A stretch of 33,314 nt of DNA from Candidatus Heimdallarchaeota archaeon (GTDB lineage Archaea; Asgardarchaeota; Heimdallarchaeia; Heimdallarchaeales; Heimdallarchaeaceae). Every line of letters starts with the position of its first letter. Within the stretch, counting starts at the first letter, position 1. The notes below the pieces were generated by a model. It had not been told where the DNA came from. It searched no databases and was given only the letters and a program-made list of their open reading frames with translations. Positions 5,456 to 32,647 of the stretch are shown in pieces. The translations under genes were made by a program, and so were the position numbers. Where the stretch lies: assembly GCA_019894795.1 (NCBI GenBank), contig JAGXNV010000006.1, forward strand, positions 1 to 33,314, given 5' to 3'.

Positions 5456-5512
5456 TTGTTTGATCCTGAAGACGGAGACGATACGATAAGTCCACCTCTG
5501 TGGCATCCCTTA
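5456..5512 (+). pseudogene. Decayed short peptide copy (FDPEDGDDTISPPLWHPLK...)
   Basis: Conserved motif present; ATG position is CTT compared with the 16088 copy and the W-x-P-stop end is frameshifted. Confidence 0.7.
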
Positions 5513-5640: not shown

Positions 5641-5737
5641 CTTCTACTAGTAAAACTGTTTTCTTGTCAGTTTCTTTCTTGTAGTCTTTTAGTATGTTCT
5701 ATCTCTTCTAAGAGTAACTTAGATGAGTGATGCAAAA
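5641..5737 (+). promoter_or_regulatory. Repeated peptide leader/promoter, copy 1
   Basis: actagtaaaactgttttcttgtcagtttctttcttgtagtcttttagtatgttctatctcttctaagagtaactt...gtgatgcaaaa, repeated at other peptide loci. Confidence 0.75.
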
Positions 5738-5806
5738 ATGATGAAAATGTACGATCCTGATGAAGGAGACGAGGATATTCTCCCCCCTGGTTGGTTTCCA
5801 AACTAA
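5738..5806 (+). CDS. Short acidic peptide MMKMYDPDEGDEDILPPGWFPN (receptor 1 proximal)
   Basis: Intact 22-codon ORF; member of the 12-copy family; preceded by GTGAT and the conserved leader. Confidence 0.8.
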   Translation: MMKMYDPDEGDEDILPPGWFPN

Positions 5807-5876
5807 CCATTTTTTTATTTTCAATATTATCTAGTATTATCACAGTATATAAATGAATTTACGGATTAAAGCTTGA

Positions 5877-7457
5877 GTGTTGCATATGGGGTATGATAAT
5901 TTGTTTCATTACATTGAGAAAATAAGGACATGTGATGAATTGAATGAAATTACTGAAGATTTAAGGATAATTGCAGCAAATGAAAAATCGGCAATAGTCC
6001 TAAAATTAATTGAAGAAGCACTTCATCGAAGTGAATATTTGAATAATATAAAGGCTTCCATTAACCTAAAAGAACTACAAATAAAGCAACTATACGGTTT
6101 TTTGGAAACAATTCCTATTATTGAGGAAATACTTTTCTCTATGAAATCTGCATCAGAAGAACTAAATTATCCAGAAGGAATCATCCTAAGTTATTCGATT
6201 GAATATGGTATAGAAAAATTCAAGGGTAATAAAGATCTCAGCCAAATTGCAATTCAAAAAGCAATGGATTTATTGGAAAAACAAGTTAATTTTGACAAAT
6301 ATGTTTACAATGTTTGTAGATATAGTTATGCAATAGAAAATTGGTTAGAGAAACACGACCCAAAAAGTGGAGCGATATTAGAAGAATGTTTCACTTATTT
6401 TATCGATAGGGCAATTTACAAAGGCGCAATTCATTCTCTTGGTTATTTGAGTTTGATATATTTTCACTTTTCAAGAAGAACAGAAGCAATTGAAATAGTA
6501 AAAAAACTTTTAACTAGCAAAATAAAAATTGAGAAACTTTCTAAAGACCTTCAAACTGTTGTTTATTACTTCCTAGGTGTTGTTTTTAAATTAGACTTTC
6601 GTCTTTTGGAGGCGGAGAAATACTTAATTCAATCAAAACAAGTATTCGAATCTAATGGAAATGGAGATATTTCTTCAAATTACTATTTAACAACACTTTC
6701 TCATCTTACTACAATCTATGCTTTACAAGGAAAAATAGATTTAGCTCTTGAACAAATGAAAAAGGTTGAAGAGTTATTAGAAAAGGAAATATTTCTAAGG
6801 AATCTTTACTCTTTTAATAAAAATCAAATAATCCATACTTTCAATTTAACTAAATTTTACATTCTATCAAGATTACATCACTTCAATGTAGAAAAAAATC
6901 AAGATTTAATTCAGACTATTATTAGCAATGTTGGAACTTACCACAGTAATGCCATTATGTTGAGCGAGTTTATACTAAATGCCAACTTAGCTAAAGTAAT
7001 GTTACAAGATATAAAGAATTTGAATAATCCAAGCACTAGAAGAATAGAACATATTCTAGATTTCCTAATATGTCGGGGAATTGAATCTGATATGCAAACT
7101 CTTCAAAGGATAAACACACTCAGAAGAAGACCTGTAGAGGAGAGAATGACTACTGTTGAAAAAGCATTGGCTGATTTGCTAGCTGCCCAAGAATATTACA
7201 AAATCAAACGGTTTTTAGAAATTCACTCATTATTAAAGAATTATCAAAACCATCTTCAGTCTATAGAAGTTCTCGAATTACGTGTCTTCATGGAAGCGTT
7301 CATCCAGGTAGGGGAGTATAAGAACGGTGATCCCCTTGGTCCAGCTTTACAATATATGGCCATTAAGAAGTGTAGACTCTATGGGTTCTCTAGATTAGAA
7401 AACAAGCTACTAGATTACTTACAGTTACAACATAAGGAGATCACAAGAACAACATAG
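5877..7457 (+). CDS. TPR-like helical protein, paralog R1 (candidate peptide receptor)
   Basis: 526 aa; shared N-term motif LRIIAANEKS and near-invariant C-term MEAFIQVGEYKNGDPLGPALQYMAIKKCRLYGFSRLENKLLDYLQLQ; TATATAAA at ~5846. Confidence 0.85.
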   Translation: MLHMGYDNLFHYIEKIRTCDELNEITEDLRIIAANEKSAIVLKLIEEALHRSEYLNNIKASINLKELQIKQLYGFLETIPIIEEILFSMKSASEELNYPEGIILSYSIEYGIEKFKGNKDLSQIAIQKAMDLLEKQVNFDKYVYNVCRYSYAIENWLEKHDPKSGAILEECFTYFIDRAIYKGAIHSLGYLSLIYFHFSRRTEAIEIVKKLLTSKIKIEKLSKDLQTVVYYFLGVVFKLDFRLLEAEKYLIQSKQVFESNGNGDISSNYYLTTLSHLTTIYALQGKIDLALEQMKKVEELLEKEIFLRNLYSFNKNQIIHTFNLTKFYILSRLHHFNVEKNQDLIQTIISNVGTYHSNAIMLSEFILNANLAKVMLQDIKNLNNPSTRRIEHILDFLICRGIESDMQTLQRINTLRRRPVEERMTTVEKALADLLAAQEYYKIKRFLEIHSLLKNYQNHLQSIEVLELRVFMEAFIQVGEYKNGDPLGPALQYMAIKKCRLYGFSRLENKLLDYLQLQHKEITRTT

Positions 7458-9635: not shown

Positions 9636-9729
9636 CTTCTAGTAAAACAATTGTATTGACAGATTCTTTCTTGTTGTCTTTTAGTATGCTCTAGCACTTC
9701 TAAGTATAACTTAAACATGTGATGCAAAA
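9636..9729 (+). promoter_or_regulatory. Repeated peptide leader/promoter, copy 2
   Basis: tagtaaaacaattgtattgacagattctttcttgttgtcttttagtatg...gtgatgcaaaa. Confidence 0.7.
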
Positions 9730-9798
9730 ATGATAAACAAAACATTTGATCCCGAAGACGGCGACGATTCTATTCTTCCTCCACTTTGGTGGCCTTAA
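9730..9798 (+). CDS. Short acidic peptide MINKTFDPEDGDDSILPPLWWP
   Basis: Intact 22-codon ORF; family motif. Confidence 0.8.
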   Translation: MINKTFDPEDGDDSILPPLWWP

Positions 9799-9809
9799 AC
9801 GTGATTATT

Positions 9810-9881
9810 ATGATGAAGACTAAATATGACCCTGAAGATGGAGACGAAAGTATAACTCCCCCACTTTGGTCTCCAAATTAA
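9810..9881 (+). CDS. Short acidic peptide MMKTKYDPEDGDESITPPLWSPN
   Basis: Intact 23-codon ORF starting 11 nt after the previous peptide's stop. Confidence 0.8.
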   Translation: MMKTKYDPEDGDESITPPLWSPN

Positions 9882-9924: not shown

Positions 9925-10020
9925 AGTTTTTCTAGTAAAACTGTTTTCTTGTCAGTTTCTTTCTTGTAGTCTTTTAGTATGTTCTATCTCTTCTAAGAGT
10001 AACTTAAACGTGATGCAAAA
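9925..10020 (+). promoter_or_regulatory. Repeated peptide leader/promoter, copy 3
   Basis: Near-identical to copy 1 over ~90 bp. Confidence 0.75.
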
Positions 10021-10086
10021 ATGAAGACTAAATATGATCCGGAACCTGGCGACGATGATATAGGACCACCTTTGTGGCATCCTTAA
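10021..10086 (+). CDS. Short acidic peptide MKTKYDPEPGDDDIGPPLWHP (R2 proximal, EP type)
   Basis: Intact 21-codon ORF; family motif. Confidence 0.8.
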   Translation: MKTKYDPEPGDDDIGPPLWHP

Positions 10087-10146: not shown

Positions 10147-11748
10147 GTGAAGGCTATGGTTAATATCGATTTATTCAGTACTATCAAAGAAAAACTAATC
10201 TTAGTAGAAACGAAAGATGATTTCAAACCTGTTTTCAAAATAATTCAGAGACTAGCATCTAATGAACGTTCAAACAAAGATGTGCTAACTTTGCTTGAGG
10301 AAGGAATGATGAAAGCTGTTTGTTTAGAAGATAACGAATCTTTAGTTAATTTATATGGTCTAAAAATATTACAATTGGAACATTTAAAGACAAATTTACC
10401 CATTATTTCAGAACTGCTAGATGAAATGTATAAAATAGCTGAAAGGCAGGAATATAAAGAAGGATTAGCGTTCTATTACTCCTTTGTCTGGTACATTGAG
10501 AAATTTAAGGGAAAGCAAGAACAAAGTAAAAAAGCTATTTTAAAAGCAAAAGATATTCTAGATCATGCTGAAAAGAAAAATGAATATATTTACCATTTTG
10601 TCAGATATTCTTACGCAGTAGAACAATGGACAGCATATCATGATAAAGATTGCGCGGAAATTTTTGAAGAATGTTTGCTATATTTTTATAATAATGAGTT
10701 CTATAGAAGTGTTGTCCAAACGTTAGGGCTTCTGACGATTATCTATCAACAGACTCAGAACAAGGAAAAGGCTTCCAGTGTGTCTAAATTGCTACTTAAT
10801 CATAGCCATTCCTTTAATCAACAACCTGAAGATATAAAGGCTATAGCATATTATCTTGCGGGAGTAAGTCAATTATTAGAACATAATCTCGGGCAGGCAG
10901 ATAATCTGCTTAGTGAATCCTATTCTTTACTAAATAACAAACTGTATCATAGCAATTTTTATCCTTATTATATTATCAGATTATTATCCCACATAGCTAT
11001 TATACATGCATTGCAAGGTAAACTTGAACAATCATTTGAAGAAATTGTGAAAATTGAAAATTTATTTGATGACGAACACATCAACAATGGTATGGATAAT
11101 AATAGCAAAGAGCAAGTAATCCATACATTAAATTTAATCAAGTTCTATGTTTATTCAAGATTGTTCGATTTTAAGGCAGAAAAGGTTCAGATTCTTATTA
11201 ATAAAATATATCAAGGAATTGAAAATAACTACAGTGATTCTATACTTCTTAGTGAGTTTATATTGAACGCAAAATTAGATAGTGAACAAGTTAAAAAATT
11301 GATAAACACAAGGAATGCAAGTTTATTTAGAGTTAAACATATCTTAAAATATGCTCTAACAAAATCAAGTAACGATTCTGAAATGAGAATAAAATCTCTC
11401 AAAAGCATACGTAGCAATAAACAAACAATTAAGAACTTCACTTTTATTGAAAAAGCTCATTCTGATCTACAACTAGCTCAAGAATTATTCTCACTCAAAA
11501 GATATGCTGAAATTTCCCCTCTTCTTAAGAAATATGAAAATAGATTAAAACAAATCGAAGTACTTGAGATGCGTATCTTCATGGAAGCGTTCATCCAAGT
11601 AGGGGCGTATAAGAACGGTGATCCTCTTGGTCCAGCTTTACAATATATGGCCATCAAGAAGTGTAGACTCTATGGGTTCTCTAGATTAGAAAATACTTTG
11701 CTTGATTACTTACAATTGCAACATAAAGAGATTACAAGAGCAGTATAG
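10147..11748 (+). CDS. TPR-like helical protein, paralog R2 (candidate peptide receptor)
   Basis: 533 aa; shared N- and C-terminal motifs; central region most like R6 (IIYQQTQNKEKA, PED[IV][KQ]AIAYYLAGV[SG]QLL); TTATAAAT at ~10121. Confidence 0.85.
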   Translation: MKAMVNIDLFSTIKEKLILVETKDDFKPVFKIIQRLASNERSNKDVLTLLEEGMMKAVCLEDNESLVNLYGLKILQLEHLKTNLPIISELLDEMYKIAERQEYKEGLAFYYSFVWYIEKFKGKQEQSKKAILKAKDILDHAEKKNEYIYHFVRYSYAVEQWTAYHDKDCAEIFEECLLYFYNNEFYRSVVQTLGLLTIIYQQTQNKEKASSVSKLLLNHSHSFNQQPEDIKAIAYYLAGVSQLLEHNLGQADNLLSESYSLLNNKLYHSNFYPYYIIRLLSHIAIIHALQGKLEQSFEEIVKIENLFDDEHINNGMDNNSKEQVIHTLNLIKFYVYSRLFDFKAEKVQILINKIYQGIENNYSDSILLSEFILNAKLDSEQVKKLINTRNASLFRVKHILKYALTKSSNDSEMRIKSLKSIRSNKQTIKNFTFIEKAHSDLQLAQELFSLKRYAEISPLLKKYENRLKQIEVLEMRIFMEAFIQVGAYKNGDPLGPALQYMAIKKCRLYGFSRLENTLLDYLQLQHKEITRAV

Positions 11749-11800
11749 AATTCTAGGGAGGAGTTCCTATGTTCTTTGGAGGTTTTTCTTTTTGTCTCTT
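11749..11800 (+). terminator. Receptor 3' hairpin (TAGGGA-GGAG-TTCCTA) plus T-rich tract
   Basis: ctagggaggagttcctatgttctttggaggtttttctttttg directly after the stop codon. Confidence 0.65.
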
Positions 11801-11850
11801 AATTTCTTCTGATTTTTTGCATTTCTTTCTTCTTAGATTATTGATAGACT

Positions 11851-11914
11851 ATGAACCAGACATATAATCCTGGACGGAGACGATGCGATAAGTCCACCTC
11901 TGTGGCATCCCTTA
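11851..11914 (+). pseudogene. Frameshifted short peptide copy (MNQTY.. / ..GDDAISPPLWHP)
   Basis: cctggacggagac versus intact cctgaagacggagac: 2 nt deletion. Confidence 0.7.
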
Positions 11915-12042: not shown

Positions 12043-12140
12043 GTTTCTACTAGGAAAACTGTTTTATTGTCAGTTTCTTTCTTGTAGTCTTTTAGTATGT
12101 TTTAGCATTTCTAAGTATAACTTAAATGAGTGATGCAAAA
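12043..12140 (+). promoter_or_regulatory. Repeated peptide leader/promoter, copy 4
   Basis: aaaactgttttattgtcagtttctttcttgtagtcttttagtatg...gtgatgcaaaa. Confidence 0.75.
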
Positions 12141-12209
12141 ATGATGAAAACATATGATCCTGAAGACGGAGACGAATCGATAACACCGCCATTGTGGTGT
12201 CCCGTATAA
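12141..12209 (+). CDS. Short acidic peptide MMKTYDPEDGDESITPPLWCPV (R3 proximal)
   Basis: Intact 22-codon ORF; family motif. Confidence 0.8.
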   Translation: MMKTYDPEDGDESITPPLWCPV

Positions 12210-12308
12210 GACGCTCTTTTCTTTTTTCAATAGAATAATTTAGCTACAAAAATATAGGTATTTTGTATTACACCAAGTATATAAATCATTTTTCCGATTA
12301 CTAATTAG

Positions 12309-13898
12309 ATGTGGAGTACTAAAAATATAGAAAATAACTTGGATTCTATTCAAAATAAGAGCGAAATGGAAGTAATGATTAGAGAATTAAAAATCATATC
12401 CTCTAATGAAAAATCCCAAGAAATTGTTACTTTAATAAAAAAAGCTCGTAAAAAATGCATTGAGATAGATGATAAGGAGAATCAAGTAATTCTATATGGA
12501 CTCCAAATTGGTCAACTGTACCACTTTAAGAAGCATCTAAATTTGGTTTCTAATCTTCTAAAATCGATGAAAGAGCTTTCGGTTGAAATTGACTATACAG
12601 GCGGAATAGCATTTTCGCTTATGTTTGAATGGTTAATTGAAAAAATGAAAGGAAATAAAGAAAATTACTCTAATGCGATAGAAAAATCCATCCAAACCAT
12701 AACAAAGGAAAAAATAAATGATGAGTATATACAAACTATGTGTAATTACTCCTATGCTGTTGAAATCTGGTTGGAAAATCATGATGTCAGAAGCACAAAC
12801 ATGCTTGAGAATTGTTTAGATTTCTTCTATCGAAATAAGTACTATAGAAATTTGACCCAAACACTAGCAATACTATCCATAATATATTCTCACACTCAAA
12901 AATCAAATAAAGGTCTCAGAATAATCCAAGATATACTCTCAAACAGAAATATTTTCAACGATTTGCCTTTGGATGTTAAAGCAATTACATATTATTTTTC
13001 AGGTTTAACGCATTTGTTACAGGCAAATCTCAGACTCTCTGAATCATATTTCGATGAAGCTTATGATATCTTTAAACCGATTTACAAAAGCAGTATTTAC
13101 TTCAGTAATTTTCTTACATTGCACTCTTATCTTGCTACTGTCAAAGGATTGCAAGGCAAAACAGATCAAGTATATGCCTTAATTAAAGATGCAAAAACTC
13201 TTCTCCAAACAGATTATATGAAGACTAATTTAGATCAAATTACAAGAAAGCAGATAGTTCATACACTCAATCTCGTAAAATTCTACAATATTTCACGTTT
13301 AGGAAATTATGCTCCCCACGAACATCAAGAGCTGATTGGTAAGATAATTGATAACTGCAAAGACCTGTATAGCGATTTCATGACACTTAGTGAATTTATC
13401 CTCAGTGCCAATCTCGGTTCTGATAAACTTCAACAGTTATTGGAAATAGATAATTTCAGCATCAACCGAGTAAAATATCTGATTGAGTTTATGTTTGAAA
13501 AACAGAAATTAGATACAGAGATTAACAGAGAACAGAAAGTCTCGAATTGTATTGTTATTTTAGAAAAGCGTGAAAAGACAACCAAAACTACGTTTATGGA
13601 AGATGCTTATACAGATCTCCTTATTGCCCAACAGCTGTTCTCTCTTAAGCGATATGCTGAAATCACCCCTCTGCTTAAGAAATATGAAAACAGATTAAAG
13701 CAAATAGAAGTGCTTGAGATGCGTATCTTCATGGAAGCGTTCATCCAGGTAGGGGCATATAAGAACGGTGAGCCTCTTGGCCCAGCTTTACAGTATATGG
13801 CCATTAAGAAGTGTAGACTCTATGGGTTCTCTAGATTAGAAAACAAGTTACTAGATTACTTACAGTTACAACAACAGGAGATTACGAGAACAATATAG
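12309..13898 (+). CDS. TPR-like helical protein, paralog R3 (candidate peptide receptor)
   Basis: 529 aa; same family; central IYKSSIYFSNFLTLHSYLATVKGLQGKTDQ shared with R4/R5; TATATAAA at ~12278. Confidence 0.85.
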   Translation: MWSTKNIENNLDSIQNKSEMEVMIRELKIISSNEKSQEIVTLIKKARKKCIEIDDKENQVILYGLQIGQLYHFKKHLNLVSNLLKSMKELSVEIDYTGGIAFSLMFEWLIEKMKGNKENYSNAIEKSIQTITKEKINDEYIQTMCNYSYAVEIWLENHDVRSTNMLENCLDFFYRNKYYRNLTQTLAILSIIYSHTQKSNKGLRIIQDILSNRNIFNDLPLDVKAITYYFSGLTHLLQANLRLSESYFDEAYDIFKPIYKSSIYFSNFLTLHSYLATVKGLQGKTDQVYALIKDAKTLLQTDYMKTNLDQITRKQIVHTLNLVKFYNISRLGNYAPHEHQELIGKIIDNCKDLYSDFMTLSEFILSANLGSDKLQQLLEIDNFSINRVKYLIEFMFEKQKLDTEINREQKVSNCIVILEKREKTTKTTFMEDAYTDLLIAQQLFSLKRYAEITPLLKKYENRLKQIEVLEMRIFMEAFIQVGAYKNGEPLGPALQYMAIKKCRLYGFSRLENKLLDYLQLQQQEITRTI

Positions 13899-14084: not shown

Positions 14085-14181
14085 TGTTTACTAGTAAAAC
14101 AGTTTCTTTGTCAGTTTCTTTCTTGTTGTCTTTTAGTATGTTTTAGCATTTCTAAGTATAACTTAAATGAGTGATGCAAAA
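14085..14181 (+). promoter_or_regulatory. Repeated peptide leader/promoter, copy 5
   Basis: actagtaaaacagtttctttgtcagtttctttcttgttgtcttttagtatg...gtgatgcaaa. Confidence 0.75.
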
Positions 14182-14247
14182 ATGATGAAAACATATGATC
14201 CTGAAGACGGAGATGAATCTCTAACCCCGCCCCTGTGGCACCCCTAA
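14182..14247 (+). CDS. Short acidic peptide MMKTYDPEDGDESLTPPLWHP (R4 proximal)
   Basis: Intact 21-codon ORF; family motif. Confidence 0.8.
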   Translation: MMKTYDPEDGDESLTPPLWHP

Positions 14248-14374: not shown

Positions 14375-15985
14375 TTGACTAAAATGTGTGAAGGGTCAAA
14401 AGCTAGGGAAATAAATGATAAATTACAATTGATATTATCTGAAACAAAAATCGATGAAATTCTCAGGAAATTACGTGTTCTAGTGTCAAATGACCGTTCA
14501 AACCAAACCATAATGAAAATTACTAAGGAAGCCATAAAGAAATTCACAAAAATGGGAAATCATAAAGGTTTGGTTGATTTATACGGTCTTCTTATTTTAC
14601 AGTTAGAACATCTTAATGAAAATGCTGATAATGTATCTGTGTTAATAGAAAAAATGCAAAAGACAGCTGAGAAACATCAGTATAAAGAAGGTTTGGCCCT
14701 TACGTATTCATATTTGTGGTATAATGAAAAACTCAAGGGAAATTCAAAGGCAAGTAGAGAAGCAATTTTCAAAGCGAAAGAAATAATTGATAATCTAAAA
14801 GAATGTGAGAATTACAACTACTACTTTGTTATCTATTCATTTGCAATGGATCGATGGTTAGAAAAACACGATACATCTGTAATAAGCTTATTAGAAGATT
14901 GTATACAGTATTATTACAAGAACAATTTTCATAGAAGTTTGGCTCAAACTTTTAGTTTTTTGAGCATCATCTATACTAGAAAACATAAAAATAAAAGAAT
15001 ACTAAAATTAGGCAATGAAATCCTTGCAAATCGAACTCTCTTTGAAAAATTACCTCCTGATGTGGAAGGAATAATCTATTATTTTACAGGTTTAGGTCAT
15101 ATGTTAGACGCCAATTTAGTGATGGCTGAATCATATTTCAACGAAGCTTATGATATCCTTAAACCCATTTACAAAAGCAGCATTTACTTCAGTAATTTTC
15201 TTATCTTGCACTCGTATCTTGCAACTGTCAAAGGATTGCATGGTAAAACTGATCAAGCATATTCTTTTATTAAAGAGGCAGAAAATATTCTCCAATCTGA
15301 TTTCATAAAAACTAATTTAGATGAAAACACTGAAAAGCAGATTGTTCATACCCTCAACCTAGTAAAATTCTACAACATTTCACGTTTAGGAAAATATAGT
15401 CCCCAGGAACATCAAGTGTTGATTAATGAGATAATTGAGAATTGTAAAGACCTTTATAGTGATTTCATGACCCTTAGTGAGTTTATTCTTAACTCCAATC
15501 TCGATTCTGATAAACTCCAATTATTACTATCAATCGATAATTTCAGTATAAATCGAGTAAAACATCTAATCGAATTCATGCTTGAAATGCAAAGGTTAGA
15601 TACAGAAATTAGTCAAGAACAAAAAGCTTTGAACTGTATTTCCATCTTGAAAAGCCGCGTAATAACAAGCAAGATTATCTTCATGGAGAATGTCTATGCA
15701 GATTTGCTTATTGCTCAACAACTGTTCACTCTTAAACGGTATGCAGAAATCTCTCCCCTTCTTAAGAAATATGAAAACAGATTAAAGAAAATAGAAGTGC
15801 TTGAGATGCGTATCTTCATGGAAGCTTTCATTCAAGTAGGAGCATTCAAGAGCGGAGATCTTCTAGGACCTGCATTACAATACATGGCTATAAAGAAATG
15901 CAGACTCTACGGATTCTCTAGATTAGAAAACACATTACTAAGGTACTTACAATTGCAGCATAAGGTTATAACAAGAGCAAATTAG
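14375..15985 (+). CDS. TPR-like helical protein, paralog R4 (candidate peptide receptor); ATG at 14384 is a likely alternative start
   Basis: 536 aa; same family as R3/R5. Confidence 0.85.
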   Translation: MTKMCEGSKAREINDKLQLILSETKIDEILRKLRVLVSNDRSNQTIMKITKEAIKKFTKMGNHKGLVDLYGLLILQLEHLNENADNVSVLIEKMQKTAEKHQYKEGLALTYSYLWYNEKLKGNSKASREAIFKAKEIIDNLKECENYNYYFVIYSFAMDRWLEKHDTSVISLLEDCIQYYYKNNFHRSLAQTFSFLSIIYTRKHKNKRILKLGNEILANRTLFEKLPPDVEGIIYYFTGLGHMLDANLVMAESYFNEAYDILKPIYKSSIYFSNFLILHSYLATVKGLHGKTDQAYSFIKEAENILQSDFIKTNLDENTEKQIVHTLNLVKFYNISRLGKYSPQEHQVLINEIIENCKDLYSDFMTLSEFILNSNLDSDKLQLLLSIDNFSINRVKHLIEFMLEMQRLDTEISQEQKALNCISILKSRVITSKIIFMENVYADLLIAQQLFTLKRYAEISPLLKKYENRLKKIEVLEMRIFMEAFIQVGAFKSGDLLGPALQYMAIKKCRLYGFSRLENTLLRYLQLQHKVITRAN

Positions 15986-16038
15986 AATTCTAAGGAGGGG
16001 TTCTTATGTTCTTTGGAGGTTTTTCTTTTTGTCTCTAA
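15986..16038 (+). terminator. Receptor 3' hairpin (TAAGGA-GGGG-TTCTTA) plus T-rich tract
   Basis: Stem carries a compensatory A/T for G/C pair relative to the other copies. Confidence 0.65.
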
Positions 16039-16087
16039 ATTTCTTTTGACCTCTTGTATTTCCTTCATCTTTGATTATTGATAGACT

Positions 16088-16180
16088 ATGAACCAATTAT
16101 TTGATCCTGAAGACGGAGACGACGCAATATCCCCTCCACTTTGGTGCCTTAGAAAAGAGATGATATATGATGAAAACTAA
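16088..16180 (+). CDS. Short peptide with altered C-terminus MNQLFDPEDGDDAISPPLWCLRKEMIYDEN; overlaps the next peptide start
   Basis: 30-codon ORF; apparent 1 nt loss after the PPLW codons extends the reading frame. Confidence 0.6.
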   Translation: MNQLFDPEDGDDAISPPLWCLRKEMIYDEN

Positions 16181-16238
16181 ATATGACCCAGATGAAGGAG
16201 ACGAAGGCATTTTACCCCCTGCGTGGACACCAAATTAA
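16167..16238 (+). CDS. Short acidic peptide MMKTKYDPDEGDEGILPPAWTPN
   Basis: Intact 23-codon ORF; near-identical to the 11928 peptide. Confidence 0.8.
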   Translation: MMKTKYDPDEGDEGILPPAWTPN

Positions 16239-16280: not shown

Positions 16281-16377
16281 CTTCTACTAGTAAAACTGTT
16301 TTCTTGTCAGTTTCTTTCTTGTAGTCTTTTAGCATGTTCTAGCACTTCTAAGAGTAACTTATTAGAGTGATGCAAAA
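16281..16377 (+). promoter_or_regulatory. Repeated peptide leader/promoter, copy 6
   Basis: Near-identical to copy 1. Confidence 0.75.
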
Positions 16378-16446
16378 ATGAACCAGACATATGATCCGGA
16401 AGACGGAGACGAATCCTTTACTCCTCCATTGTGGTTTCCTAATTAA
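16378..16446 (+). CDS. Short acidic peptide MNQTYDPEDGDESFTPPLWFPN (R5 proximal)
   Basis: Intact 22-codon ORF; family motif. Confidence 0.8.
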   Translation: MNQTYDPEDGDESFTPPLWFPN

Positions 16447-16517: not shown

Positions 16518-18104
16518 ATGCAGAAGGAGAGTCTAATAAACCAAGTTAAAAATATTAGAAATCACGAAGAACTTCAAGAAATAATTAAAGATTTACGTGT
16601 AGTTTCAGCAAACGAAAAATCCGAAACCGTTTTAGAAATAATAAGAAGAGCAGTTAAATGGGGTAAAAAATTAGACCATAAAATATCCATTGTTAATCTA
16701 TATGAACTTGAAATAAAGCAATTATTTCATAAAAAAATCTCAATAAAGAGAATTAAATTTCTTCTAACTGAAATGTTTAGAATATCAGAAGAAATCAATT
16801 ATAGTGATGGGTTAATATTGGCACATTCAATTAAATGGGGTATTTTAAAGTTAGAGGGGAGAATTAAAGAAAGTACTAATGCGCTAAGAAAAGTAGAATC
16901 GCTTTTATCAAATACAGAACAAAAGGATGAATATGTTTATTATATGTGTAAATATTCGCTTGCTTTTGAAGACTGGATGTTGAATCATAATTCTGAAGTA
17001 GCAAATGATTTTGAAAAATGTAATGAATTTTTCTTTAAAGAGGGTTTTTACAGAAGCCTAGCTCAAACTTACAGTTTTCTGAGTGTTATCTACACAAGAA
17101 AACAGGAAGGCAAGAAAGCATTAGATATGGGCAATCAAATTCTAGCTAACAGATCTCTCTTTGAGAATTTACCTCACGATGTTCAAGGAATCATTTACTA
17201 TTTCACAGGTTTAGGACATATGTTAGAGGCTAACTTAGTAATATCTGAATCTTATTTCAATGAAGCTTACACTGTCCTTAAACGGATCTATAAGGATAGT
17301 ATCTACTTTAGTAATTTCATTATTCTACACTCTTATCTTGCAACGGTTAAAGGATTGCAAGGTAAAACAAATCAAGCTTATTCTTCAATTAAAGAAGCAA
17401 AAATTATCCTCCAATCTGAGTTTATAAAAAAGAATCTAGATGAAAATTCTGAAAAACAGATAGTTCATACCCTTAATCTCGTAGATTTCTACAATATTTC
17501 GCGTTTGGGTAATTATACCCTCCATGAACATCAAGTACTGATTGGTGAGATAATTGAAAATTGCAAAGACCTGTATAGCGATTTCATGACTCTTAGTGAG
17601 TTTATCCTTAGTGCTAATCTGGGTTCGGATAAGCTTCAACTGTTATTAGCAATTGATAATTTTAGTATTAACCGAGTAAAACATCTAATCGAGTTTATGC
17701 TTGAAAAACAGAAGCTAGATACAGAAATTAGTAAGGAACAAAGGAGCTTGAATTGTATCTCCATACTGAAAAACAGAGAAGTAACAACCAAAACCACCTT
17801 TATGGAACATGCTTATGTAGATCTACTTGTTGCACAGCAATTATTCTCACTTAAGCGATATGCTGAGATCTCCCCTCTGCTTAAGAAATATGAAAACAGA
17901 TTAAAACAAATAGAAGTTCTTGAGATGCGTATCTTCATGGAAACGTTCATCCAAGTAGGAGCATTCAAGAGCGGAGATCCTCTTGGTCCAGCTTTACAAT
18001 ATATGGCCATTAAGAAGTGCAGAATCTATGGGTTCTCTAGGTTAGAAAATAAGTTGCTAAATTACTTACAGTTACAATATAAAGAGATAAAAAGAACTGT
18101 ATAG
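16518..18104 (+). CDS. TPR-like helical protein, paralog R5 (candidate peptide receptor)
   Basis: 528 aa; same family as R3/R4. Confidence 0.85.
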   Translation: MQKESLINQVKNIRNHEELQEIIKDLRVVSANEKSETVLEIIRRAVKWGKKLDHKISIVNLYELEIKQLFHKKISIKRIKFLLTEMFRISEEINYSDGLILAHSIKWGILKLEGRIKESTNALRKVESLLSNTEQKDEYVYYMCKYSLAFEDWMLNHNSEVANDFEKCNEFFFKEGFYRSLAQTYSFLSVIYTRKQEGKKALDMGNQILANRSLFENLPHDVQGIIYYFTGLGHMLEANLVISESYFNEAYTVLKRIYKDSIYFSNFIILHSYLATVKGLQGKTNQAYSSIKEAKIILQSEFIKKNLDENSEKQIVHTLNLVDFYNISRLGNYTLHEHQVLIGEIIENCKDLYSDFMTLSEFILSANLGSDKLQLLLAIDNFSINRVKHLIEFMLEKQKLDTEISKEQRSLNCISILKNREVTTKTTFMEHAYVDLLVAQQLFSLKRYAEISPLLKKYENRLKQIEVLEMRIFMETFIQVGAFKSGDPLGPALQYMAIKKCRIYGFSRLENKLLNYLQLQYKEIKRTV

Positions 18105-27153: not shown

Positions 27154-27387
27154 GTTAGAGTCAGTGTTTCTATATACGACACAAAAGAATATAATAGAGA
27201 GAGAGTATGTCTAACTAGCGAAGTTTTCTCGTGTGGGGTTGGACTTATTGGTGTAAGACCCTTGAATGATAATCTCACTTCGAAACTTCGCTACCCTATT
27301 TTTTACTATTATACTCTACTCTGTAAAAACTTAGGAACAATAATACAAATAAATACTTATTATCACTTAATAGCTGGTAGGATTAAG

Positions 27388-28239
27388 ATGAATCAAATCG
27401 TTCGCTTCGCTAATGTATCAAAAAAATTTCAATTATTCTGGGAGGAATTAGTTATACTTAAGGAAGTAAACTTAGAAATAGAGAGAGATGAATTGGTATT
27501 ATTATATGGTCCAAGCGGAAGTGGGAAAACAACACTATTGAACCTTTTAACTGGTCTTTTACACCCCAATGAGGGAGAAATAGAAGTAGCTGGATTGTAC
27601 ATAGATTTAATCGCAGACAGAGAAAAAGCTGATTTTCGCTCAAACTACCTAGGAATCGTTTTTCAAGAAAATAATCTAGTGTCCACACTTACTGTAACAG
27701 AAAATATAATTCTCTTCCAAGAGTTATGTGGTTTTGATGGAGAGGAGGAAGAAAGAGAAAGCAAGATAAACAAATTGCTAAAGAGATTGAAGATAGATAA
27801 CAGAAAGGATAGTTTCCCAGCGCAGTTAAGCGGGGGAGAAAAGAAACGTGTTGCCATAGCAAGAGCATTGTCCAATAACCCGTATATCCTAATTTTAGAT
27901 GAACCTACAGGTAATTTAGATCGTGAATCAGCTGATATGCTGTGTAATCTAATTCAAGAAATATTCATAACAACAGACATTACAATCATTATTTCGTCGC
28001 ATGATCCTAAAATGAAGGAAATAGCATCGACAGTATATCATGTAGGAGCACAATCTGTAACACTTGAAGAAGAACATCCTGACAGGAGAAAGAAGCAAGA
28101 CACCAAATATAGATCAATTAGTTCTAAGGAGATGCAAATCGAAGAACCTGAACTTAATGATGATTATACAGAACATGAAATAATGAATATGACAGAGGAA
28201 GAAATCGACTTCATGGAAGGAGAAGAACAGGAAAATTAG
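27388..28239 (+). CDS. ABC transporter ATP-binding protein (LolD/MacB-like); track start 27262
   Basis: GPSGSGKTT Walker A, LSGGEKKRVAIARAL signature, ILDEPTGNLD Walker B. Confidence 0.93.
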   Translation: MNQIVRFANVSKKFQLFWEELVILKEVNLEIERDELVLLYGPSGSGKTTLLNLLTGLLHPNEGEIEVAGLYIDLIADREKADFRSNYLGIVFQENNLVSTLTVTENIILFQELCGFDGEEEERESKINKLLKRLKIDNRKDSFPAQLSGGEKKRVAIARALSNNPYILILDEPTGNLDRESADMLCNLIQEIFITTDITIIISSHDPKMKEIASTVYHVGAQSVTLEEEHPDRRKKQDTKYRSISSKEMQIEEPELNDDYTEHEIMNMTEEEIDFMEGEEQEN

Positions 28240-28258: not shown

Positions 28259-30070
28259 ATGATAGGACAACTGAAATTTGCTTGGATTGATTTCAAGAGA
28301 TCTTTTCTTAGTTCATTATTCACCTTCATTAGCCAGATAATAACCTACTCAGCAATTACAATCAGCATAGGTTTATTCTCACTAATGAAAGCTAATCTCC
28401 AAATGTCGCTGGATTATGTTTATTACAGTTCTTACACACTAATTACAATATTTTTCATTGTGGTTTGTATAATAATTGGAGTAATTGTAACTAGAAGGTC
28501 AATAGATCTTAAGTTTCAAAGTCAAAAAGATGATATCGCTGTGATGAAAAATGTGGGAGGAAAAAGTAGGTGGATATACAGTTATTTTCTCTTCAATCAG
28601 ATTTTGACAGCAACGATAATGTTGGTTCTAGGAATGATTATAGGATTAATTGTTCTAGTTATAACAGGTGTTTCGTTTGGGTTCGGGAGCATATTTAACT
28701 ATGTAGGGTTTCTCCCAATACTAGGAGGAAACTTAGTAATATTGGTTTTTTCTTACATTAAAGCGCATTATACAATATTGAAATTCATAAGCGAAAAGGA
28801 TTTTGAGATATCTTCAAGTAGTTTAAGTAATTACAAAAGCATCTTTGAATTTGACGCTTTAATAAACAAATTCAATTCATCAGTAAAATTAGGGGTGAAA
28901 AATTTCTTAAGATCAGGAAAAATTCTAACAAGTTTGTTATTTAGTTTCTTTCTGATATTTTCTTCAATTTCCTTTGTATTGGGACCATTGACAGTTGCTG
29001 AAACACATACAGCAAATCTTGATAATAGATTTGGAAACTATACTTATGCTATAGGTTCGCCTGAAGTTATAAGCTTCTTTAATCAAAGTTTACCGGTTCA
29101 AGAGTATAGTAATAGTTCCTATACAGGATTAGGGAATGATCTTACTTACTTCTATGAAACCTCACTATCATCACAATTGCTAACAGAATTACAAGAGACA
29201 GGAGTCGATTATCACAAGTATTTCATTTCAAAACTGCAGATACAAGAACTCTCAGGGCATGATATAGTGAATGAGGTTTACATGCCTATAGGTCAAAATC
29301 GCAAAGTATATGCTACTATAATAGGATATGAAGATATTAATTTCGAAGAAAATGAATATATAGCAGGAACCAACCCAAGACTTTCTAAAAATGAAGTTTT
29401 AATTGGTGATACCTTGGAAGCTAAGTTTTTTGAGAATAGCACACTTCAAAAATTGAAACTTCATGATGATTCAAATGATTACCAAATTAGTGGAGCAGTA
29501 ATAGATAGTTTTGCTGCAGGATACAGTGTCTATTGTCCATTGAATAAATTAATCTCAGATGGAGTTTCTAATGGTACTAATTTACTAATGTTAGAAAACT
29601 TAGATGGAGCAGTTTATGATGAAATAAGTGAGATTCTTGAAGGATATGGATATCAAATAGTAGATATAAAAAGTATGATCGAACAAAATCTATCAAATTA
29701 TAACAGTTTTACTACTATGTTTAAAGTGCTCGGAGGGATATTGTTCGCAATCTTTTCATTCCAGGTAATAGTATATTCATTCCTGTATTTCCTAACATAT
29801 CGAAAGGACTTCGAACTACTTTATCGGCTAGGAATAAAAAAGAGAAGCATATATGGATCAGTTATTACGGCAATCCTTCTACAAATTATTCCAGGTATAG
29901 CATTAGGAAGCTATTTCGGAGCAATAATAGGAAGATATTTTCTTGTACCGTACGCAGTATTATCAAACTTTGCAGTAATAATTATATCAGTAATAGTAGG
30001 ATTCATACTAATAGCAACAACTACTTCAATCTATGCAAGTAGAAAAGGGTTGGAAAAAGTGATAACATAG
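28259..30070 (+). CDS. FtsX-like/MacB-type ABC transporter permease
   Basis: 603 aa; N-terminal and C-terminal TM clusters, large extracytoplasmic domain; 20 nt after the ATPase. Confidence 0.88.
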   Translation: MIGQLKFAWIDFKRSFLSSLFTFISQIITYSAITISIGLFSLMKANLQMSLDYVYYSSYTLITIFFIVVCIIIGVIVTRRSIDLKFQSQKDDIAVMKNVGGKSRWIYSYFLFNQILTATIMLVLGMIIGLIVLVITGVSFGFGSIFNYVGFLPILGGNLVILVFSYIKAHYTILKFISEKDFEISSSSLSNYKSIFEFDALINKFNSSVKLGVKNFLRSGKILTSLLFSFFLIFSSISFVLGPLTVAETHTANLDNRFGNYTYAIGSPEVISFFNQSLPVQEYSNSSYTGLGNDLTYFYETSLSSQLLTELQETGVDYHKYFISKLQIQELSGHDIVNEVYMPIGQNRKVYATIIGYEDINFEENEYIAGTNPRLSKNEVLIGDTLEAKFFENSTLQKLKLHDDSNDYQISGAVIDSFAAGYSVYCPLNKLISDGVSNGTNLLMLENLDGAVYDEISEILEGYGYQIVDIKSMIEQNLSNYNSFTTMFKVLGGILFAIFSFQVIVYSFLYFLTYRKDFELLYRLGIKKRSIYGSVITAILLQIIPGIALGSYFGAIIGRYFLVPYAVLSNFAVIIISVIVGFILIATTTSIYASRKGLEKVIT

Positions 30071-30208
30071 TTCATTAGGTCTTTAGAACAAAGTAATTTT
30101 ACTGAAACTTCTGCAATCTAAACTCGTTATTTTCATTAGTGTCTTCTTTTTCTTTTGAGGTTTAATATTCTCCTTACATATGAATATAAACAATTCAAGT
30201 GATGCAAT

Positions 30209-30274
30209 ATGAAACAATGTTATGATCCTGAACCTGGTGACGATGATATTGGCCCTCCTCTATGGTGGCCATAG
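30209..30274 (+). CDS. Short acidic peptide MKQCYDPEPGDDDIGPPLWWP (EP type, convergent to R6)
   Basis: Intact 21-codon ORF; family motif; GTGATG upstream. Confidence 0.8.
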   Translation: MKQCYDPEPGDDDIGPPLWWP

Positions 30275-30346: not shown

Positions 30347-31936
30347 CTATACTGTTTTTGTTAACTCCGTTTGCTGCAATTGCAAGTAATCCAGTAGTTT
30401 ATTTTCTAATCGGGAGAACCCATAAAGCCTGCATTTCTTAATGGCCATATATTGGAGAGCTGGACCAAGAGGATCTCCGCACTTATACGCCCCTACCTGG
30501 ATGAGCGCTTCCATAAAAACACGTAATTCCAAAACCTCTATTTGATTGAGACGATTCTCGTATTTTTGTAAGAGAGGGTAAATTTCTAAATGCCGCTGTT
30601 TTTTAAAAAGCTCTTGAGCTAGCAACAAATCAGAATATGCTTGCTCAATAAATGTACAGCCTTTCTTTTTAGACCCCTTGTTTAGTATTTTGAAGTAAGA
30701 ATCAATTTTCTTTTTATCATTGTCTTCCAATCTTTCTTTAGTATAGTCTATGATTTGTCGAATTCGTTGTAAACTAGCATTATCTGATAATGACAGTTTT
30801 TCTAGTTGTTTCTTATCTAATTCTGCATTAAGAATGAATTCACTTAGAAGCACAGAATCGTTGTAATTGTCTTCAATTCCTCGATGTATTTTCTCTATAA
30901 GAGATTGTACCTTGTCTGCATTAAAATCATATAGGCGAGAGTAAACATAAAATTTTATTAAATTTAATGTGTGAGGAACTTGCCTCTTGCTGTAGATATC
31001 CATGTTCTTAATAAAAAAATCATCTTCTAGCAAATCTTCTATTTTCTTAATATTTTCGTAAGATTGCTCAATTTTACCTTTTAAGGCTTGAACAATAGCC
31101 AAATGTGATAACAATCTAGCATAGTAATAGGAGTAATAACTACTCAGCTTCAGTTTTGAATTCATGAGCAGATAACATTCATTTAATAGATATTCTGATT
31201 GCCCCAAATTATGCACCAGTAATTGACCCACTCCAGCAAGATAATACGCTATGGCTTGAACATCTTCTGGTAAATGTGTAAAGAGATATTTGTTGTTGAA
31301 GAGCTGTTGAGAGGTCATTATTGCTTTTTCTTTATTTTGTGTTTGCTGATAGATTATACTTAAAATGCCTAAAGATTGTATTAAACTTCTATAATATCCT
31401 TCTTTAAAGAAATATTTTGAGCATTCTTCTAAAATTGGACCACTTTTGATACTATGATCTTCTAGCCAATATTCAATTGCTAATGAGTAGTTACAGATAT
31501 AATAGACATATTTTTCAGGATTAGAAGTCTTCCTTATGTGATTAATTGATTCCTCAAGCGCTTTTCTACTTTTTTCTTTATTGCCTTGTATTTTCTCAAT
31601 ATACCATTCAATATTGTAAGATAGAGCTAAACCCTCAGAATACTCAATTTCAATGGATAATTCTTTCATTTCTTGAACAATTTCAACCATTTCAGGAATT
31701 TTATCCAATAAATGTTCAATTTGAGAAATTTTGATTTCATAAATTTTTATTAAAGATTTTTTATCATTAAGCAATCTGCATTTTTCTACAGTTTTTTCTA
31801 ATAAGTTAAGATTGTTTATTTCATATTTTTTATTGGAGAATATAACTCTTATTTTATCAAGAAATCTCTCCAAATCCGCTCTTAATGTAATTTCATTTAA
31901 TTCTCTAATCAGTTCTTCCATGGAGTTAATCACCAA
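30347..31936 (-). CDS. TPR-like helical protein, paralog R6 (candidate peptide receptor)
   Basis: 529 aa; same family; central region closest to R2. Confidence 0.85.
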   Translation of the reverse strand: MVINSMEELIRELNEITLRADLERFLDKIRVIFSNKKYEINNLNLLEKTVEKCRLLNDKKSLIKIYEIKISQIEHLLDKIPEMVEIVQEMKELSIEIEYSEGLALSYNIEWYIEKIQGNKEKSRKALEESINHIRKTSNPEKYVYYICNYSLAIEYWLEDHSIKSGPILEECSKYFFKEGYYRSLIQSLGILSIIYQQTQNKEKAIMTSQQLFNNKYLFTHLPEDVQAIAYYLAGVGQLLVHNLGQSEYLLNECYLLMNSKLKLSSYYSYYYARLLSHLAIVQALKGKIEQSYENIKKIEDLLEDDFFIKNMDIYSKRQVPHTLNLIKFYVYSRLYDFNADKVQSLIEKIHRGIEDNYNDSVLLSEFILNAELDKKQLEKLSLSDNASLQRIRQIIDYTKERLEDNDKKKIDSYFKILNKGSKKKGCTFIEQAYSDLLLAQELFKKQRHLEIYPLLQKYENRLNQIEVLELRVFMEALIQVGAYKCGDPLGPALQYMAIKKCRLYGFSRLENKLLDYLQLQQTELTKTV

Positions 31937-32049: not shown

Positions 32050-32115
32050 TTAAGGTCTCCATAAGGGGGGGCCAATATCATCGTCGCCGGGTTCAGGATC
32101 ATATTTAGTCTTCAT
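32050..32115 (-). CDS. Short acidic peptide MKTKYDPEPGDDDIGPPLWRP (R6 proximal, EP type; in-frame ATG also at 32121)
   Basis: Reverse-complement ORF of 21 codons; family motif. Confidence 0.8.
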   Translation of the reverse strand: MKTKYDPEPGDDDIGPPLWRP

Positions 32116-32200
32116 TGTCATCACTTGTTAAAGTCATACATATAGTATTAACAAGCTACTAAAAGACACAAGGAAAGAAGTTGACAGAATAATTGTATTT
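32116..32200 (-). promoter_or_regulatory. Diverged peptide leader/promoter, copy 7
   Basis: Reverse complement ctgtcaacttctttccttgtgtcttttagtagc...aagtgatgacaatg aligns to the other leaders. Confidence 0.6.
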
Positions 32201-32288
32201 GTAGAGAATTCTTAACAAACAGCTCAGAATATGCAAAATAATATATTTTATGAATAATTAGAAATGTAAAAAAATCAATCTAACACCA

Positions 32289-32330
32289 ATTTATGCTAGT
32301 AGAAAAGGGTTGGAAAAAGAAATTATATGA
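32289..32330 (+). pseudogene. 3' remnant of a second FtsX-like permease (..IYASRKGLEKEII*)
   Basis: Matches the permease end IYASRKGLEKVIT* (30028-30070) in protein and DNA. Confidence 0.65.
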
Positions 32331-32344
32331 TCTACGGTCTGAGC

Positions 32345-32647
32345 TCATGAAATGGGAACAAAATCCTTTGTTAGCATCTTGTTAATTTCTCTTTGAGGTA
32401 CCTCTTTACTTCTAAGACCCGCAACAAAGACATTAAGACAATCTTTACAATAGACTTTCTTGATTCTAGTATTATAGGTCAAGGGAGACATAAATTTACT
32501 CTTGCCACAGATCGAGCATCTATCTTGAATACCTGCTGTAATATCAGTTGTACAATCTTCGCAGTAATTAACCTTACCCTGGACAGGACGTCCGCATTTA
32601 GCACAAAAACGTACTCTAGTAACCATAATATCGAGATTTCCGGTCAT
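32345..32647 (-). CDS. Zinc-ribbon protein with several CxxC motifs
   Basis: 100 aa; CAKCGRP..YCEDC..CSICGKS..YCKDC. Confidence 0.8.
   Translation of the reverse strand: MTGNLDIMVTRVRFCAKCGRPVQGKVNYCEDCTTDITAGIQDRCSICGKSKFMSPLTYNTRIKKVYCKDCLNVFVAGLRSKEVPQREINKMLTKDFVPIS

Follow-up and report, generated by a model that had tools for sequence, protein, structure and literature searches.

A conserved leader, probably a dedicated promoter, of short peptide genes paired with TPR-solenoid genes in Heimdallarchaeia

A family of very short, rapidly diversifying peptide genes in a Heimdallarchaeia genome is preceded by a conserved leader of about 95 bp, which, judging from sequence comparisons, is probably a dedicated archaeal promoter with a short 5'UTR, set in cassettes that pair a peptide gene with the gene for a putative TPR-solenoid receptor. 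The window, the whole stretch of 33,314 nt analyzed here, is the entire contig C330 of a 3.07-Mb draft genome. Blocks of this kind had been predicted at positions 5641, 9636, 9925, 12043, 14085, 16281 and, on the minus strand, 32116-32200, and all 7 were found there, each directly before a gene for a peptide of 21 to 22 amino acids (Table 1).

Structure and occurrence of the leader

A sequence-only model of 74 positions, R1, was built from 30 diverse leaders. The 7 blocks matched R1 with E-values of about 1e-12 to 1e-14 in a search of the whole 3.07-Mb genome, which yielded 10 strong places in all (E<=9e-7, the next match having E=0.004), 8 in the window and 2 on contig C327, all of them on intact peptides. 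The earlier list was therefore incomplete, having missed the copies at 30141 on the plus strand and on contig C327. Matches to R1 were found in 22 of the 23 genomes of the family, and nothing better than E=0.5 was obtained in 340 kb of a relative's genome. The full-length matches outside the arrays that were inspected in relatives were located before peptides, some of them solo copies without a TPR gene and some decayed by frameshifts. The repeat is thus real and far from chance.

The leaders in the window contained, in this order, the box TGTCA, the TATA-like element TTTTAGTA 22 bp further on, the motif RTAAC after 27 nt, and the motif GTGATG after another 11 to 13 nt, followed by the ATG. 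The spacing was the same in the 6 plus-strand copies, with the sole exception of a segment 2 nt shorter before the SD-like motif at 10010. The element TTTTAGTA began 48 to 51 nt before the ATG, in agreement with the TATA-like element placed about 45 to 50 nt before the start in the original prediction. Among 91 leaders, the TGTCA columns were conserved to 98% (T), 100% (G), 79% (T), 98% (C), and 95% (A), scattered T columns in the pyrimidine tract to 97% to 100%, the T and A of the TATA-like TTTWARTA to 99% and 98%, and the last 4 columns of RTAAC, 27 nt downstream, to 88% (T), 91% (A), 89% (A), and 85% (C). Between species, the sequence upstream of TGTCA was unalignable. The leaders inside one array were nearly identical while the middle parts of the TPR proteins differed; they are homogenized by recent duplication or gene conversion, and identity inside the window therefore proves little by itself.

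As a TATA-like box, TTTTAGTA is weak, and a general TATA calibration on the genes of a relative gave no clear TATA peak. Of 104 peptides, 59 had an SD-like GTGAT no more than 36 nt from the DP core, as compared with a frequency of 6% within 20 nt of the start codon in ordinary genes, a comparison that is only rough because the 2 distances searched are of unequal length. A reading of GTGATG as part of an in-frame peptide extension, "MSDAK" (ATGAGTGATGCAAAAATG), was rejected, since the frame was kept only in some copies, and the motif is better taken as SD-like. The inverted repeat AAACTG-N9-CAGTTT, previously suggested as an operator, was counted as present when at least 5 of its 6 pairs were kept. 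By this measure it occurred in 5 of the 8 leaders scored in the window, as compared with just 8 of the 86 from other places, and is therefore not a conserved operator; only its right arm (TGTCA) was conserved, and the whole repeat was local to the recent copies in the window. Nor was the degenerate direct repeat of the same prediction conserved across species. It was also noted that a further leader class of another sequence (TTGTCTCTAAATTTCTTCTG...TTGATAGACT-ATG) preceded the first peptide of some intervals, at about 11790-11855 and 16025-16087 in the window and also at L039:1418, L060:6713, and L066:6676. This class stops directly at the ATG and may be leaderless.

The full leader, with RTAAC and the SD-like motif, was confined to peptide genes, intact or decayed. 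The promoter half, from TGTCA to the TATA-like box, recurred without these 2 motifs at a family of genes that encode proteins of about 121 amino acids (MxKLWGDTxETxELAKKNLE...) and is found in this setting in about a dozen genomes; 5 further places also carried it, so that an absence of copies outside the peptide family, considered in the original prediction, holds for the full leader but not for its promoter half. The ~121-aa family was reached via partial R1 matches that began at TGTCA and ended soon after the TATA box. One of its paralogs carried TGTCA (TGTCT in some genomes), pyrimidines, and TTTAATA at the same spacing as in the leaders, in about a dozen genomes, and another retained the TATA part alone; the copy in the genome studied here (G000, C354:9885) is the paralog with the TGTCA-less promoter. 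At these genes the element stopped just short of the ATG, as would suit a promoter whose start lies about 25 nt beyond the TATA box but not an RNA leader.

A degenerate pattern of box and TATA was found at 26 places in 23 genomes and at none in a reversed control; 21 places corresponded to peptides and 5 to other genes or to places with no assigned gene. The strict joint pattern occurred in 1 of 141 intergenic upstream regions of a relative (0.35 expected by shuffling) versus 58 of 104 peptide upstream regions. Both counts indicate that the TGTCA-TATA core is a rare promoter class, the full leader being particular to the peptides. The ~121-aa protein (L210-L222, L231, L245) is possibly an autoregulated regulator or a fellow member of the regulon. 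A regulator was not borne out by the searches: a winged helix was discerned by eye only, the Pfam model GMT-wHTH matched 2 of 12 members at 0.048, which is not significant, and the PDB search gave no significant match. In addition, a TGTCA box with a canonical TATA (TGTCACTTTCTTTCTTCA-AGTTTATAAA) was observed before a 66-aa membrane protein (G000:C302:9363), before a 368-aa, probably secreted protein (G016:C97:7817), and at a place with no clear gene (G000:C302:7295).

Table 1. Leaders, peptide genes, TPR-solenoid genes, and neighboring genes in the window
Feature	Position	Strand	Sequence or elements	Remarks
Leader of peptide 5738	5641-5737	+	TGTCA 5665; TTTTAGTA 5687; GTAAC 5714; SD-like GTGATG 5727	R1 E=9.8e-15
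Peptide 5738	5738-5806	+	MMKMYDPDEGDEDILPPGWFPN	
TPR-solenoid protein	5877-7457	+		526 aa; pairs with peptide 5738; TPR_12 match (5e-6) under Pfam cut-off
Leader of peptide 9730	9636-9729	+	TGACA 9657; TTTTAGTA 9679; ATAAC 9706; SD 9719	E=8.6e-14
Peptide 9730	9730-9798	+	MINKTFDPEDGDDSILPPLWWP	
Peptide 9813	9813-9881	+	MKTKYDPEDGDESITPPLWSPN	No own leader; 14 nt after stop of peptide 9730
Leader of peptide 10021	9925-10020	+	TGTCA 9950; TTTTAGTA 9972; GTAAC 9999; SD 10010	E=1.4e-14
Peptide 10021	10021-10086	+	MKTKYDPEPGDDDIGPPLWHP	
TPR-solenoid protein	10147-11748	+		533 aa
Leader of peptide 12141	12043-12140	+	TGTCA 12068; TTTTAGTA 12090; ATAAC 12117; SD 12130	E=1.5e-14
Peptide 12141	12141-12209	+	MMKTYDPEDGDESITPPLWCPV	
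TPR-solenoid protein	12309-13898	+		529 aa; predicted structure, mean pLDDT 90.6
Leader of peptide 14182	14085-14181	+	TGTCA 14109; TTTTAGTA 14131; ATAAC 14158; SD 14171	E=1.1e-14
Peptide 14182	14182-14247	+	MMKTYDPEDGDESLTPPLWHP	
TPR-solenoid protein	14375-15985	+		536 aa
Peptide 16170	16170-16238	+	MKTKYDPDEGDEGILPPAWTPN	Without main leader
Leader of peptide 16378	16281-16377	+	TGTCA 16305; TTTTAGCA 16327; GTAAC 16354; SD 16367	E=2.3e-14
Peptide 16378	16378-16446	+	MNQTYDPEDGDESFTPPLWFPN	
TPR-solenoid protein	16518-18104	+		528 aa
ABC ATPase	27262-28239	+		With permease, adjoins peptide 30209; candidate exporter
FtsX-like permease	28259-30070	+		With ATPase, candidate exporter
Eighth, diverged leader	30141-30208	+	GTCTT 30141; TTTAATA 30161; ATAAAC 30186; GTGATG 30199	E=5.2e-7
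Peptide 30209	30209-30274	+	MKQCYDPEPGDDDIGPPLWWP	Convergent with TPR gene 30347-31936
TPR-solenoid protein	30347-31936	-		529 aa
Peptide 32115	32050-32115	-	MKTKYDPEPGDDDIGPPLWRP	
Leader of peptide 32115	32116-32209	-	TGTCA 32186; TTTTAGTA 32164; ATGAC 32137; GTGATG 32124	E=1.1e-12
Zinc-ribbon gene	32345-32647			Part of older synteny block

Peptides, TPR-solenoid proteins, and neighboring genes

The peptides had the form M-x(2-4)-Y/F-DP-xx-GD-xx-I-x-PP-x-W-x-P, with 21 to 22 amino acids. The residues DP, GD, PP, W, and P were invariant in 68 peptides of the standard form, and the residues flanking W and the last residue varied. Differences between similar peptide copies numbered 260, 234, and 1125 at codon positions 1, 2, and 3, with a dN/dS of about 0.07, a rough figure since the compared pairs are not independent. 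The concentration of differences at the third position and the low dN/dS argue that the peptides are coding, and in all likelihood they are translated. No signal peptide or hydrophobic signal segment was visible in them by inspection. Two intact peptides in the window, 9813 and 16170, lacked the main leader, and peptides 9730 and 9813 are probably bicistronic. Decayed copies with frameshifts or lost starts adjoined intact ones at 5461, 5530, 11873, 11931, 14003, and 16088 in the window, which points to active birth and death in the peptide array.

A same-strand peptide gene was located just upstream of 64 of the 67 TPR genes, mostly at a distance of 77 to 220 nt. The TPR genes had a canonical TATA of their own in 58 of 64 intergenic regions and a TGTCA box in 1 of 64, and an assignment of the leader to the TPR genes was discarded, the leader being missing from 63 of 64. 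A conserved promoter, TTTATAAAT-N-AATTT-N-CGGATTA, was observed shortly before the TPR start, for example at about 5845-5876 and 12275-12308 in the window. Of 228 genomes of the phylum, 21, belonging to 2 genera, had full TPR relatives, and a diverged TPR paralog of about 560 amino acids was found in many of these genomes. One such paralog of 561 amino acids in the genome studied here (G000:C110:7557-9243; L157) lies beside 2 convergent, leadered peptides, MYDPEPFDDESIPPAWFP and MYDSEPLDDESLPPCWFP. A viral or mobile origin found no support, in that no TPR relative was confirmed in the IMG/VR viral contigs.

The AF2 model of the TPR protein was an all-helical solenoid (pLDDT 90.6, pTM 0.88). 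In Foldseek searches with this model, the best PDB matches were eukaryotic TPR scaffolds, and the next matches included Rap of pLS20 (E=1.2e-3) and NprR (4e-3), with modest TM-scores. The match of one paralog to TPR_12 was under the curated cut-off (Table 1), searches of Pfam, NCBIfam, and PADLOC assigned the protein convincingly to no defense, Pfam, or NCBIfam family, and a profile search of the PDB returned designed repeat proteins only. No HTH was detected by Pfam, and in the secondary-structure listing the predicted helices formed the repeat solenoid from the N-terminus onwards; no DNA-binding domain was visible in the predicted model.

Pairwise distances of peptides and TPR proteins were correlated (r=0.70 for 55 pairs). 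For the TPR middle (alignment columns 160-440), the correlation with the peptide was r=0.67 among 54 cognate pairs, and it stayed at 0.65 (P<0.001) in a partial Mantel test of the same pairs given the leader and both TPR ends. Leader distance was related to peptide distance with r=0.14 (partial -0.11) and followed the near-invariant TPR C-terminus (r=0.37). The mean identity of the TPR proteins was 32% in the N-terminal part, 42% in the middle, and 75% in the C-terminal part. The N-terminus is physically nearer the peptide gene than the middle, yet the co-variation signal was located in the middle, a pattern not predicted by physical linkage alone; if the N-terminus evolves fast, however, any signal of its own could be masked, and we therefore regard the pattern as support, not proof. 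We read it as binding of the peptide by the variable TPR middle, with the constant leader and C-terminus homogenized within genomes. It was further observed that the last ~110 residues of the TPR proteins are nearly identical among paralogs and follow the leader, not the peptide, which may reflect gene conversion or else a surface for a shared effector.

Of 20 places with an FtsX-type permease, from 19 genomes, 18 had a leader no more than 7 kb away (L286-L306 among the permease loci), and in 7 genomes a leader followed the permease on the same strand at a distance of at most 600 nt. A role as dedicated exporter was not adopted: the linkage is strong, but the gene block is older and exists without cassettes, the order ATPase-permease-zinc ribbon being present with no inserted cassette in many genomes and also in the peptide-less genome G002. 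The transporter may export the peptides, or its locus may be no more than a hotspot of insertion. The 3' end of the permease gene recurred as a direct repeat of 42 bp (86%), with copies at 30027-30068 and 32287-32328 in the window that bracket the cassette of peptide 30209, the TPR gene, and peptide 32115. Both repeat copies were seen also in G022 (L100, L141), and the arrangement suggests an insertion with duplication of the permease gene end.

Interpretation of the leader and the cassettes

All leadered peptide genes share a promoter-like block whose TATA-like element lies about 50 nt ahead of the ATG. Its conservation in 22 genomes and its great rarity elsewhere make co-ordinated expression of these peptides, as originally proposed, a natural reading, and a single factor may act on all leader copies. 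In the mechanism that we propose, the TGTCA box, which with the pyrimidine tract lies immediately upstream of the weak TTTWARTA, would be bound by an activator, and transcription of the peptide gene would most likely start about 27 nt downstream of TTTWARTA, at RTAAC. The resulting leader RNA of about 20 to 30 nt would bear the SD-like GTGAT just ahead of the ATG. The promoter half at the small set of other genes would represent a promoter class or regulon, and each peptide would be driven separately from the neighboring TPR gene with its canonical TATA and no TGTCA box. The peptide would bind the middle of its cognate TPR solenoid through its variable C-terminal half, and the near-invariant TPR C-terminal part would relay its state to a common partner, either intracellularly or after export and re-uptake of the peptide.

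The conserved SD-like GTGAT, the end of the block at the start codon, and the inverted repeat reported earlier could be taken to mean that the block acts post-transcriptionally, as an attenuator or a riboswitch-like RNA leader. This is very improbable, given that RNAalifold predicted 0 pairs on 30 diverse leaders, that the inverted repeat is unconserved, and that the 5' half occurs without the 3' half near the ATG of unrelated genes. It is also improbable that the block has no regulatory role beyond shared ancestry, the cassettes being duplicated or converted, with the block perhaps a recombination site that shuffles them. Near-identical leaders beside differing TPR middles, a leader distance that follows the homogenized TPR C-terminus and not the peptide, and the active turnover shown by decayed peptides and the 42-bp flanking repeat would all suit such a history, whereas the position-specific conservation and fixed spacing across 2 genera, the retention of the block in solo copies, and the recurrence of the core at unrelated genes, with no match in the reversed control, would not. 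Somewhat unlikely, in our judgment, is an ordinary constitutive core promoter of the lineage, with TGTCA as a basal element and no dedicated regulator; several unrelated genes do carry TGTCA-TATA, and TATA parts similar to GGTG-TTTAAATAG occur also at the TGTCA-less ~121-aa paralogs, but the strict joint pattern is rare outside the peptides and missing from the adjacent TPR genes.

Besides a dedicated promoter, the preferred reading of the leader, the role of the peptide itself has to be considered. The peptide could well be an intracellular partner of the TPR protein, such as a subunit, inhibitor, or adaptor, or else a RiPP, and no signal at all. We consider this quite possible, since strict co-linkage and co-variation suit any obligate partner and the peptides show no visible signal sequence. 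On the other hand, the occurrence of polymorphic paralogous pairs, of additional peptides in tandem, and of solo peptides lacking a TPR gene is typical of peptide-receptor systems, and the window revealed no RiPP enzyme, although both points exclude only weakly. To us, the pairs look like an undescribed peptide-and-receptor system, possibly for cell-cell signaling, in which the peptides would be exported and act as signals. The most far-reaching version, a first gene-encoded archaeal peptide-pheromone system with several polymorphic pairs in each Heimdallarchaeia genome, in which a TGTCA factor under peptide-TPR control induces all peptides together and the neighboring ABC transporter possibly exports them, is unlikely as a whole.

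Relation to known systems and significance

The nearest parallel is provided by the RRNPPA systems of Bacillota (Rap-Phr, NprR-NprX, PlcR-PapR, AimR-AimP, Rgg-SHP, ComR-ComS), in which a short peptide gene likewise lies beside the gene for a cytosolic TPR-solenoid protein. The likeness extends to the many polymorphic paralogous pairs per genome, to the co-variation of peptide and receptor, and to the presence of Rap and NprR among the Foldseek matches. Most RRNPPA members, all but Rap, have an N-terminal HTH, whereas the archaeal TPR protein has none, gave no sequence match to RRNPPA profiles (Pfam, NCBIfam, PADLOC), and is paired with peptides that have no visible Sec signal. Furthermore, the hosts are Asgard archaea, whereas RRNPPA systems have been described in Firmicutes (PMC9765709). 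The archaeal peptide gene is located upstream of the TPR gene and has its own promoter, opposite to the order in Bacillales, where the peptide is encoded immediately downstream of the receptor (PMC9765709). Taken together, these features suggest cassettes of a peptide and its receptor whose mode of action resembles RRNPP quorum sensing but which are not of the RRNPP family.

Like archaeal TATA/BRE promoters, the leader has an AT-rich TATA-like box, with a putative start about 27 nt downstream; one source places the archaeal TATA around 28 nt upstream of the transcription start site (PMC8553660). It differs from them in the added TGTCA-pyrimidine box at a fixed distance, the weak TATA, and the restriction to few gene families. 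With known archaeal quorum sensing, the cassettes would share a candidate role in cell-cell signaling. The signal of Methanosaeta harundinacea is a carboxyl-AHL and that of Haloferax volcanii a small molecule, whereas the signal proposed here, in place of one of the AHL or small-molecule type, would be a peptide encoded by a gene and recognized by a TPR receptor. According to a 2025 paper on Haloferax, little is known of cell-cell signaling in archaea, and the signals described are non-peptide or of unidentified nature (PMC12240190). We found no description of a peptide-TPR or other peptide-receptor signaling system in archaea in the open-access literature.

The leader offers a handle by which every member of the family can be found, including solo and decayed peptides, and it predicts start sites and a DNA-binding factor. 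The peptides, with about 21 residues, can be synthesized, so that the pairing predicted by co-variation is testable in vitro without culturing the host. Asgard archaea are the closest archaeal relatives of eukaryotes, and peptide-receptor signaling in this group would, if true, be striking.
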